Source: Desulfobulbaceae bacterium (GTDB lineage: Bacteria; Desulfobacterota; Desulfobulbia; Desulfobulbales; Desulfobulbaceae). From it: a stretch of 64,000 nt of DNA. A program made the position numbers and the translations under genes. Numbering within the stretch: position 1 is the stretch's first letter; each line of letters begins with the position of its first letter. The stretch spans positions 21,076-85,075 of the forward strand of contig WFZC01000198.1 in the NCBI GenBank assembly GCA_015489765.1. Direction: 5' to 3'. This document shows positions 31,384-37,278 of the stretch, piece after piece. Below the pieces are notes generated by a model, which did not search any database, was not told where the DNA came from, and saw nothing but the letters and a program-made list of their open reading frames with translations.

Positions 31384-32454
31384 CTATCCCTGATGCAGAG
31401 AGCCGACTCCGACCACGGGAGTGTCGGCTCTCTTCCATTTCATCCCTGGTTCCTTTGCCAGGTCGCTTCCGCTTATCTTTGTTTTGGCCGGGTACTTCTC
31501 GAGTAACCCGTAAAGGGTGTCGAGATATCGTTCTTTATAAATCAGCTGGTCCGAATGTTCGATTTCATCGATGGTACGTGGGATCAGCGGACGCAGATCA
31601 ATACCGTATCGGTTGTTTCCCTCTTTGTTGGCATCATCGACCAACAGAATGGAGTAGTAGTTGACCAGCAGACGTGAACGTGAGTCCCGACGAAAGAGGT
31701 AGGAGCGGCCGCTTATGGAGTTGAGGAAAAAACCGGCATACTGGTAAAGCTGATCAATGGATACGCGCAGGGAAAATTCGGGTTCGTCACATTCCGGCCC
31801 TGTCGTCCACTGGTACAGATCGGCGGCAATATCTTCCACAGTGGCCCTCTCTCGATCAAGAATGGTCTTGATAATGGTGATGTTCCTGCCGCCGATCACC
31901 CTGAAAAAATGGGCCATGTTTTTCAGCATGGTGTAGAGATCGTCTGTTTCCCGGGAAACAACAGGTGGATTGTTGAGCAGTTTTTTTGCCAGTTCGAGAA
32001 AATATTGCTGCGCGGGTAGTCCCACATGGAATTGCTGAAAATATTCTTTCCTGTCCAGGAGACTGAAGAAGCCGTGCAGTCTCGCTGCCAGTGCCTTGCA
32101 TCCCTGGTCTTTGTCTTTGGCTGCCTCCATTGCTGATCCTGTCTTGCCGGTTGGTAATTTTTGGTTGTTGATTGTTGGGGATGAGGCAAGGTTGCCGGTT
32201 GCCTGCTCCTTGTCTGGAGAATTTGCCTGTTGGGCAGGCAGGGAGGAGGCGGTTGTTTCGCCCGTGGTCTGGACCGTCTGTTGCCGTTGTTTGTGCCTGG
32301 TAGCCCGATTTTTTAAAGGGCTGGATGGCGCCAGGAAGAGCCACAGACAGGCAAGAGCGGTGCAGAGGATAAGGCTGATCAGGGTAATCGGGACCAGAGA
32401 GCTTTTTTGGGCGCGATTGGCAGGTTCCGGCTCGGGCCGTTCCAGGTCGATCAT
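31384..32454 (-). CDS. Hypothetical membrane-anchored protein
   Basis: 356 aa, single N-terminal TM (PITLISLILCTALACLWLFLA), low-complexity linker, then conserved-looking domain; no family recognised. Confidence 0.7.
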   Translation of the reverse strand: MIDLERPEPEPANRAQKSSLVPITLISLILCTALACLWLFLAPSSPLKNRATRHKQRQQTVQTTGETTASSLPAQQANSPDKEQATGNLASSPTINNQKLPTGKTGSAMEAAKDKDQGCKALAARLHGFFSLLDRKEYFQQFHVGLPAQQYFLELAKKLLNNPPVVSRETDDLYTMLKNMAHFFRVIGGRNITIIKTILDRERATVEDIAADLYQWTTGPECDEPEFSLRVSIDQLYQYAGFFLNSISGRSYLFRRDSRSRLLVNYYSILLVDDANKEGNNRYGIDLRPLIPRTIDEIEHSDQLIYKERYLDTLYGLLEKYPAKTKISGSDLAKEPGMKWKRADTPVVGVGSLHQG

Positions 32455-33003: not shown

Positions 33004-33927
33004 ATGTCTGTTTATGTAACTGGCCACAAAAATCCGGATACTGATTCTGTAACCGCTGCCATCGCCTATGCCGCCCTGCTGAAGGCCCAGGGAGAAGACG
33101 CGATTCCTGCCATGCAGGGTGAGATGAATCCCGAGACCGTTACGGTCCTGGAGCGTTTTGGCGTCAGCGCCCCTGAAATTATGACCGATGCAACCGGCAA
33201 GACAATCGCCTTGGTTGATCACAGTGATCTGAACCAGGCCCCGGATAACCTTGATGCCAATAATGTGGTTGCTATTATCGACCATCATAAAATTGGTGAT
33301 GTAACGACCAACAATCCGATTTTCTGCTGTGTCAAACCGGTTGGCTGTACGGGAACAGTCCTCAAGCAGTTGTATGATATTTCCGGTGTAAGCATAGACG
33401 GCAAAGTCGCCGGCCTGATGCTGTCCGCTATCTTGAGCGATACGGTTAACTTCAAGTCGCCCACCTGTACCGATGAAGACAAGAAAGCCGTGGCCGAACT
33501 CAAGGAGATCGCCGGGGTCAGCGATACCGACGAGCTGTTTATGGATATGCTGAAGGCAAAAAGCTCTGTTGATGGTGTACCTGCCAAGGACCTGCTCAAT
33601 CGTGATTATAAGGATTTCGATATGAACGGCAACAAGGTTGGTTGCGGGCAGCTGGAGCTGGCAACTCTGGAGCAGGTTGCCGATATTCGTGATGATCTGC
33701 TGAATGCCATGAAAGAGCAGAAAGCAGCCGGTGGCCATCACACCATTTTGTTAATGCTGACAGATGTCGTCAAAGAGGGTACCGACCTGCTGGTTCTTTC
33801 CGATGATCCGTCCATCATCGAAGGTGCATTTGGTGCAAAAATGGACGGTGATTCCATGTGGGTTCCCGGCATGATGAGCCGGAAAAAACAGGTTGTACCG
33901 AATCTGCAAAAGGCTTTTGGCTGCTGA
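33004..33927 (+). CDS. ppaC: Manganese-dependent inorganic pyrophosphatase
   Basis: VYVTGHKNPDTDSVTAAIAYA, LVDHSDLNQAPDNL, AIIDHHKIGD, C-terminal SRKKQVVPNLQKAF. Confidence 0.95.
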   Translation: MSVYVTGHKNPDTDSVTAAIAYAALLKAQGEDAIPAMQGEMNPETVTVLERFGVSAPEIMTDATGKTIALVDHSDLNQAPDNLDANNVVAIIDHHKIGDVTTNNPIFCCVKPVGCTGTVLKQLYDISGVSIDGKVAGLMLSAILSDTVNFKSPTCTDEDKKAVAELKEIAGVSDTDELFMDMLKAKSSVDGVPAKDLLNRDYKDFDMNGNKVGCGQLELATLEQVADIRDDLLNAMKEQKAAGGHHTILLMLTDVVKEGTDLLVLSDDPSIIEGAFGAKMDGDSMWVPGMMSRKKQVVPNLQKAFGC

Positions 33928-34008: not shown

Positions 34009-35635
34009 TTAACCGGCTGGACATCTGATTTTATCAGTTTTTCTTGTGAAGTTAAAATGTTTGTCCCTTTTTTGGGTGTGGCATTGCAGACAGGTGCTTG
34101 CATTCGGTTTTCCGGGGCACTCTGCTTTCCGGAGCCTGGGAATGCTGCCGGGCCGGGCCATGACAGGTTTCACAACCGACACCCCGTAGTCGTGGGGGAA
34201 TAGTTGTAAGCAGCGCCTCCTGACTGGTCAGACTGGGACCATAATTCGGCAAGGTGACGTGACAGGATATGCAATCGGGATTATACTGTTGATCTTTTTC
34301 GACCAGCGTCTGCCATGCCTTGGCATGATCGGTCTGCAGGTAAAAGGCAACCTGGATGGGATGACATTTTTGACAGATTCGACTGCCTGCCATATCGGCA
34401 AAAGGGGCTGGCTGGTGTGCGTTGTTTGCTGATTGCCGCTGTTTTTCCCACCTTTGCCGCAGTTTCTGCTGCTCTTTCCTGTTAATTATATTGACCTCAC
34501 GTCTGGTCCGGTCAACAATGGCCTTTACCTCCTTGTCTTCCGGAATGGAGGTTTCCACCGCGATGAAGGTGTTGTGGAACCGACAGGCTGTCCCCGCGCT
34601 ATCGTCTTGTAGGGTGAGTTTTTTTAGTTTACGTTCAAGTTCTTCCGCTCCCCTGACCAGCCGTTGATACTGGAGGTTATTTCGGAGTTCCTCTTGCGGG
34701 TGACGTTTTTCCATCCTGCCTATCTGCCAGCGTATTCGATCAAGACGGTTTTGAGTCTTTATCAACTGATCCGTATCATTATCACTCCAGGTTTTTGTCC
34801 CGCCCCAGTCGACCTTGAGAATGCCGAGCGATTTTCCCCGGCTTGCGGTCCGGCAGAGCAGGGTATTGTTGATATTGAGCGGCGGCTGGTTGCCACCTCC
34901 CTGTCCGGCCTGGAATATGATGTGTATGTTTTTGAATTTTTGAGCTATTTCTCTGTTGGTCTGCGGCGAAGCGCTGGAGAGAAGGATGATAAGGTCCGCC
35001 CTGTTGTTGATTTTTTTCAGCACTGCCGGCAGCGCCTCCTGCCAGGGAAGGACATGGTACTGGTGTTGCTGCCGGTTTCCGGATAGTGGTCCTGTCAGGC
35101 CAATGCAGCCAATTGTCATACTGCCGGCTTTTATCATGCGATATGGTGGAAAAATTGGCGTATTTTCCTTGTCTTCGTAAAGATTAGCAGAGAGAAGAGA
35201 GAGGTCATTTTTTTTTGCCAGGCGGACAAGAAAATCCGATCCCGCGGCCAGGTCATAGGGAGAGACACCGATGGCCCTGATCTGCATCGCCGCCATTGCC
35301 TGGCCGATGCCTTTGGCGATGCGTCTGGCTGGTTTCAACTGGATGGGGGAAAGATAGGGGCGGGCAAAAAACATGGCCCCGCCGTCGATTGCAATCACCG
35401 GTTGTTTATCTGTGTGGCGCAGCTGCTGTTTGATAAGGTATGCTTTTCTGGACAGACCGCCCAGTTGATGACGGCTTCAGCCGCAGGGCTCAAGCTCGCC
35501 CCGGATATCATTGCCGTAGAGTATGGTTATTTTCTGTTCAGCGGCCCGGCTGCCGGCCGAAGCGGCAGGAATGACCAGGAAAAATCCAAGAAAAATAAGG
35601 AAGAGAGTAATAAATTTGCTATGCTGGTTTTGCAT
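34009..35635 (-). CDS. Metallophosphatase (5'-nucleotidase-like)/tetraheme cytochrome c protein; putative selenoprotein with UGA at 35477-35479 and apparent frameshift near 34114-34117
   Basis: Minus-strand reading from ATG 35635: [52 protein letters not shown]-[TGA]-SRHQLGGLSRKAYLIKQQLRHTDKQPVIAIDGGAMFF..., in frame with ORF 34052..35398. Heme motifs CQKCH, CISCH, CETCH in frame and CLQCH in the shifted frame, ending at TAA 34009-34011. Total length is 3n+1. Confidence 0.75.
35448..35464 (-). promoter_or_regulatory. Putative bacterial SECIS hairpin
   Basis: CUGGGC-GGUCU-GUCCAG on the minus strand; loop GGUCU begins 18 nt after the UGA at 35477-35479. Confidence 0.6.
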
Positions 35636-36950
35636 TGGCTTGTGCTCGTTTTGCTAATATTTTCCGCCACTTGATTAGGCGGTCCCGAATGATGGCCTCA
35701 AAGCCGCGGTTTGTCGGCTGGTAATATCTTGTGCCCGCAAGTTCGGCGGGCAGGTGTTCCTGGTCGACCAGGCCGTCTTCCTGGTCATGGGCATACCGGT
35801 ATCCCCTGCCATAGCCGATGGATTTCATCATTTTGGTGGGAGCATTGCGCAGATGCATGGGCACCGGAAGGGAACCCGTGGCTCTTATGTCCTTGTCTAT
35901 ATGATGTTCCATCCGATAGAGGGCATTGCTCTTGGGGGCGGTGGCAAGGTAGGTAACGGCCTGCATGAGCGCCAGGTCACCTTCGGGCGAACCCAGCATC
36001 TGATAGGCGTCCCTGGCGGCAAGGGCGACCGTCAGTCCTTGCGGATCGGCAATGCCCACATCTTCACTGGCAAAACGTATCAGGCGGCGGGCAATATAGA
36101 GCGGGTCCTCACCGCTTTTCAGCAGCCTGCGCAACCAGTAGGCCGCACCGTCCGGATCGCTGTCCCGCATGCTTTTATGAAGCGCTGATATGAGATTGTA
36201 ATGCTCCTCGCCCATGTTGTCAAAGCGCAGTGCCTGTTGCTGTGCCGCTATCCGGAGAATGCCGGTGGTGATTTCACCATGTCCGTTGCCCTTGTTGACA
36301 AGGGTGGCCGCGGTTTCCAGGCAATTCAATGCCCGGCGACAATCACCGTCGGCTGACCTGGCCAAGGCTTCCAGGGCCTCCCGATCTATTGTCAGTTTCT
36401 GTTTGCCCAGGCCGTTTTCAGGGTCATCGATGGCCCGTTTGATGATGGTTTGAATGTCCGTACTGGCCAGCGGCTTGAGGACCAGGAGTTGGGTTCTTGA
36501 AAGAAGCGGCGCAATAACATGAAAGGAAGGGTTTTCCGTTGTTGCTCCGATAAGCGTCAACAGGCCGCTTTCAACATGGGGGAGAAAACCATCCTGCTGT
36601 CCTTTGTTGAAGCGGTGGATCTCGTCAACAAAGAGAATGGTGGGTTTGTCGCTTTGGCCTCTTTTGGCTTCCGCTTCGGCGACAATACGTCTGACATCCT
36701 TGACACCGGAGAGAACAGCGGAAAAAAAGATAAAATCAGCCGACAGGCTGTGGGCAAGAATAGTCGCCAGGGTGGTCTTACCCGATCCCGGTGGTCCCCA
36801 GAGCAAGAGCGACGGTATCCTGCCCTGCTCGATGAACCTGTTGAGCAGGCGGCCCTCTCCTGTGAGATGCTCCTGACCGACAAAATGGGCCATTGTCCTG
36901 GGCCGCATCCGTTCGGCAAGGGGTGTGTTGTGCTGATGTTGTTTCTGCAT
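35619..36950 (-). CDS. rarA: Replication-associated recombination protein RarA/MgsA (AAA ATPase)
   Basis: [57 protein letters not shown]. Confidence 0.94.
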
Positions 36951-37278
36951 GGGGCCTTTATGGGATACCGGGAGGGATAAATGCTTTGTCTGCTTGATCT
37001 TTCCTTTTGGTTTTTCCGCGGGAAAACAGGGGCATGTCTTTGGGTGGAAATCTCTTGTCATGCTTTGGAGCCGGGACAGTATCCGGCCTGTTCCCTGATA
37101 ATTTTTTCACAAATGTATTATCAAACGAATCAGGGTGTTCGTCAAGGGTATGATTTTGTCTCCGGCTGCCGCATCATTGCCTTGCGAGCTCTATGGTGGT
37201 AAGATGTCGCAAAAGTCTCGGAAGCGGTCTTGTAGAGATTTTCCCGGGGAAGATTAGAAGTAGGCAGGCGGTGTCTTG

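Follow-up and report, generated by a model that had tools for sequence, protein, structure and literature searches.

The in-frame TGA codon at positions 35477-35479 (minus strand) of the 64,000-nucleotide stretch of Desulfobulbaceae DNA analysed here (contig WFZC01000198.1; hereafter the window) very probably encodes selenocysteine (Sec) at the second Cys position of a conserved PCGC motif, as judged from sequence comparison. The complete reading of the gene, viz. a periplasmic UshA-like selenoprotein with a cytochrome c554-type tail, in which UGA stands for Sec and a Cys-x-Sec (CxU) pair is proposed to be redox-active, is held with high confidence. On comparative grounds, the ribosome would recognize this UGA as Sec codon by means of SelB, Sec-tRNA and a hairpin located downstream.

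Gene organization and genomic context

Translation of the window from the minus-strand ATG at 35635 yields a frame of 527 codons with a single in-frame TGA (codon 53), the surroundings of which read ILYGNDIRGELEPCG-U-SRHQLGGLSRKA and include the motif ELEPCGU (codon of Cys51 at 35483-35485, minus strand). This start codon, the TGA and the continuation of the frame beyond it had been proposed in a first-pass annotation made from the letters of the window, and were all recovered by translation. The annotation had further anticipated that standard ORF calling misses about 80 N-terminal residues together with the Sec site; the actual loss amounts to 79 residues, among them the signal peptide and the probable active site, and concerns a protein that almost all sampled members of the order possess. 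With the TGA read through, the gene for the UshA-like (seleno)protein extends over 34009..35635 (minus strand) if the conserved end is taken disregarding a 3′ frameshift (see below), and to 34052 as assembled. Its product starts with a putative Sec-type signal peptide of 27 residues (35555..35635, minus strand; assigned by sequence inspection), and the AlphaFold model displays a helix at residues 4-20 of this stretch.

The gene is preceded by rarA/mgsA (35619..37061, minus strand), the 3′ end of which has 17 nt in common with the start of the selenoprotein gene, and faces a convergent DHH/DHHA2 gene (inorganic pyrophosphatase-like, ppaC; 33004..33927, plus strand). Upstream rarA and the convergent DHH-type pyrophosphatase-like gene were also found beside the homologues of most relatives with sufficiently long flanks, and the three genes stay together across the order. 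This conserved adjacency indicates stable vertical inheritance. A further ORF of 356 residues at 31384-32454 (minus strand) has no Pfam match.

Selenocysteine and cysteine forms among homologues

Homologues were searched in a sample of 58 genomes of relatives and in a wider sample of 297 genomes of the phylum. In the former, a homologue was detected in 57 genomes; nearly all full-length matches carry exactly one TGA, located in nearly all relatives, across many genera, at the same codon as in the window. In the latter, 99 genomes possess the family at E <= 1e-40, most matches again with one TGA. Copies from the same genus are 49-95% identical to the window protein, and C51, G52 and C/U53 are invariant among 22 relatives compared.

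Three genomes of one genus, designated g10 (G026, G034 and G016; loci L039, L042 and L044), have TGC or TGT at the Sec codon, and genome profile searches detected neither tRNA-Sec nor SelB in them. Their residual SelB-profile matches do not exceed ~190 bits, which is the level of elongation-factor-like matches below cut-off in other genomes, and presumably represent ordinary elongation factors. The hairpin is partly or wholly decayed in g10. Distant homologues from Planctomycetota, Myxococcota, Verrucomicrobiota and other groups share the motif PCGC. The in-frame UGA is therefore aligned to Cys in homologues, as is characteristic of bacterial selenoproteins, and the earlier proposal that the TGA occupies the position of a conserved Cys is borne out by a column composed of Cys or UGA.

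Some homologues deviate from this pattern. Genome G014 (L160) encodes a Cys form, SCGC, despite the presence of SelB and tRNA-Sec, and in G019 (contig C16, L162) the motif reads PCGSU, with UGA one codon later than usual and a similar hairpin downstream. Homologues with UGA and GGUCU hairpins also occur outside the main group, in metagenome-assembled genomes labelled uncultured proteobacterium and Oligoflexia (L087, L096).

SECIS-like hairpin

The bacterial SECIS-like hairpin CUGGGC-GGUCU-GUCCAG is located at 35448..35464 (minus strand; loop 35454-35458), beginning 12 nt downstream of the UGA, with the GGUCU loop beginning 18 nt after it; sequence and spacing are as given in the first-pass annotation. 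The latter had cautioned that the loop also encodes the residues GGL. When the comparison was confined to homologues with equally spaced Gly-Gly, and at least five of six pairs were demanded for presence, the hairpin was found in 57 of 61 TGA homologues versus 6 of 37 Cys homologues. This contrast answers the caveat; its p-value (3e-15) is nominal, given the relatedness of the sequences. The two Gly codons are nearly always GGC-GGT in company of TGA, whereas in company of Cys each position shows the full set of four Gly codons. In addition, the outer C-G pair is replaced by U-A, i.e. in a compensatory manner, in six sequences of the closest set belonging, by inspection, to at least four genera. 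Directly past the UGA, the hairpin is hence conserved beyond coding constraint.

In distant families the register of the hairpin is shifted by one base, and the loop comprises 6 nt in this second register; covariation there is weak and no better than in one slid control. Folding of a single sequence (55 nt of the window) revealed no unusual stability (z = -0.63) and preferred another structure, and the support for the SECIS is therefore comparative. The hairpin proposed earlier stands as a structure conserved among TGA homologues, but not as the preferred fold of the isolated sequence.

Frameshift at the 3′ end

As assembled, the reading frame ends at 34052 because of a one-base frameshift in a run of CCCC (34114..34117, minus strand) ahead of the last heme motif. 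The relative G005, 95% identical, has CCC at this position and stays in frame; the extra C is unique to the window copy among relatives of the same genus. Of the ORF 34052..35398 on which the first-pass annotation had built, the frame shared with the TGA-bearing start is correct, but its end is an effect of the frameshift, the conserved end being at 34009. Should the extra C be a genuine mutation, as the assembled CCCC and the shifted frame ending at 34052 would have it, the protein of this genome would truly be truncated and devoid of the last heme motif and the C-terminus. This is considered rather doubtful, since all seven of the same-genus copies examined keep the frame and a further CXXCH, and since the tail of the window copy still encodes, in the next frame, conserved sequence up to a CPAG-stop ending at 34009.

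Domain architecture and possible function

The read-through protein matches the NCBIfam profile NF041198 with 519.3 bits (curated cut-off, 275 bits) over profile positions 2-498 of 519, and contains the PCG[U/C] motif. Its C-terminal part matches PF13435 (cytochrome c554) with 49.9 bits versus a gathering score of 20.8. This region (34157..34375, minus strand) harbours three in-frame CXXCH heme motifs (34361-34375, 34259-34273 and 34160-34174); a fourth, CLQCH (34078..34092, minus strand), lies past the frameshift and is out of frame as assembled. The protein accordingly qualifies as a multiheme c-type cytochrome, and its C-terminal region is probably tetraheme.

The N-terminal part (approximately residues 32-280; 34796..35542, minus strand) constitutes a degenerate metallophosphatase domain of the UshA/5′-nucleotidase type, the fold of which emerged from profile search as well as from structure search of the model and matches 5′-nucleotidases of known structure. 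Ligands were mapped with the aid of an UshA sequence, the structure 1USH having been retrieved independently. The dinuclear ligand set of UshA-type metallophosphatases (D41, H43, D84, N116, H217, H252) was not recovered in the 22 relatives: the equivalent of D41 (the first Asp) is kept in 21 of them and is the sole conserved ligand, the equivalents of D84, N116 and H217 are not Asp, Asn or His in any, and a His occupies the H43 position in only 6 relatives and the H252 position in only 8. From the designation "metallophosphatase/multiheme cytochrome" in the first-pass annotation, both domains are retained by virtue of their profile matches, but most of the metal ligands of a phosphatase are lost. 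This loss, the known family NF041198 and the 3′ frameshift had not been mentioned there.

The exported N-terminal domain would thus represent a metallophosphatase fold without the usual dinuclear metal site. A redox role appears likelier than hydrolysis, because the metal ligands are mostly lost and Cys51, Gly52 and Sec/Cys53 are invariant. The Cys-x-Sec pair probably forms a selenenylsulfide/thiol redox centre, which, to judge from conservation, may exchange electrons either with the hemes or with a small substrate, sulfur-containing or otherwise. Ligand loss, the invariant C-x-U/C and the heme motifs combine into a specific, testable redox hypothesis. In its most explicit form, that the metal centre was swapped for a Cys-x-Sec pair wired to c-type hemes, yielding a heme-coupled periplasmic selenol oxidoreductase, it is put forward tentatively; if true, such an enzyme would represent a type still awaiting biochemical characterisation. 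The AlphaFold model is in keeping with the metallophosphatase fold, but its confidence is low at the loop that carries CxU (residues 52-56) as well as in the heme region, so that a contact between CxU and heme is not readable from it. A working metallophosphatase or thiosulfohydrolase (an UshA/SoxB-like hydrolase), with CxU in an accessory or metal-binding capacity, could draw on the fold, on profile similarity to UshA, CD73 and SoxB, and on Asp43, kept in 21 of 22 relatives; with the equivalents of UshA D84, N116 and H217 lost in all 22 and those of H43 and H252 so rarely His, it is unlikely.

Selection across the TGA and selenocysteine machinery

In the comparison with G005, dN/dS amounts to 0.14 ahead of the TGA and 0.16 past it, and in that with G007 to 0.20 on both sides; such purifying selection implies that the part beyond the TGA evolves as translated protein. 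G005 shares the TGA and differs from the window copy by one indel only. The one-base frameshift near the 3′ end of the same gene could be taken to signal a decaying pseudogene in which TGA is a true stop arisen by nonsense mutation, or an assembly error for TGC or TGT. Given a TGA common to nearly all relatives across many genera, that single indel and a dN/dS of about 0.15 on either side, pseudogene and sequencing error are rejected as very improbable.

The genome of the window encodes SelA (634 bits), SelB (373 bits), SelD (367 bits) and tRNA-Sec (72 bits), which together identify it as a selenoprotein host; the first-pass annotation had proposed to look for these genes. Its interpretation of the TGA as Sec is supported with respect to selB and selC, to the occurrence of Cys or Sec at the column, and to a decayed or misread gene. 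Genome-wide reassignment of TGA as a sense codon, e.g. for Trp, in favour of which no point was found, is dismissed as practically negligible, as the genome has a full set of Sec genes, TGA is the commonest stop codon (it terminates 23 of 36 long ORFs inspected in the window), and homologues have Cys rather than Trp at the column.

SelD of this genome (G000:C31:21204-22136; L158/L161) has an in-frame TGA of its own, at AAG-U-AAKLGPGDL, and is therefore probably a selenoprotein, too. G019, G029 and G055 possess TGA and tRNA-Sec with no SelB above cut-off, possibly owing to assembly gaps. Lower-scoring tRNA-Sec matches of a second type (56-57 bits) were observed in G044 (C104), G028 (C195) and G039 (C61); those in G044 and G028 adjoin a partial SelB match, possibly forming a divergent selB-selC cassette.

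Comparison with known systems

The SECIS of Escherichia coli fdhF has a GGUCU loop that begins 18 nt past the UGA, and the window hairpin resembles it in loop and spacing; unlike fdhF are its six-pair stem and the second register with 6-nt loop in distant relatives. With the 5′-nucleotidases UshA and CD73 and with SoxB, the window protein has the metallophosphatase fold in common, differing by the poor conservation of most metal ligands in its family and by the addition of CxU and hemes.

Relative to NF041198 (UshA_like_PCGU, "UshA-like (seleno)protein"), nothing differs in kind: the match covers nearly the whole length, and the PCGU motif as well as the succession of an UshA-like domain and a CXXCH cytochrome-type region are shared, the window copy merely having a one-base frameshift ahead of its last heme motif. 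The related profile NF049981, UshA-like (seleno)protein family 2, gave 54 bits versus its cut-off of 140, and its motif is CxxU (PMC13188914), as opposed to CxU in the window protein. No functional study of the UshA-like selenoprotein family was found in a literature search, and its biochemistry appears unexplored. As a selenoprotein the family has been catalogued since 2008; the Sec finding is correct but largely expected, and its novelty is low for that reason. The Global Ocean Sampling survey listed a COG0737 UshA-like selenoprotein with CxU motif (PMC2398784), sharing COG and motif with the window protein; it recurs in later lists (PMC9312934, PMC13188914), the last of which links it to NF041198. 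These published lists only name the family, whereas the comparison of SECIS between TGA and Cys forms and the analysis of neighbouring genes were computed in the present work.
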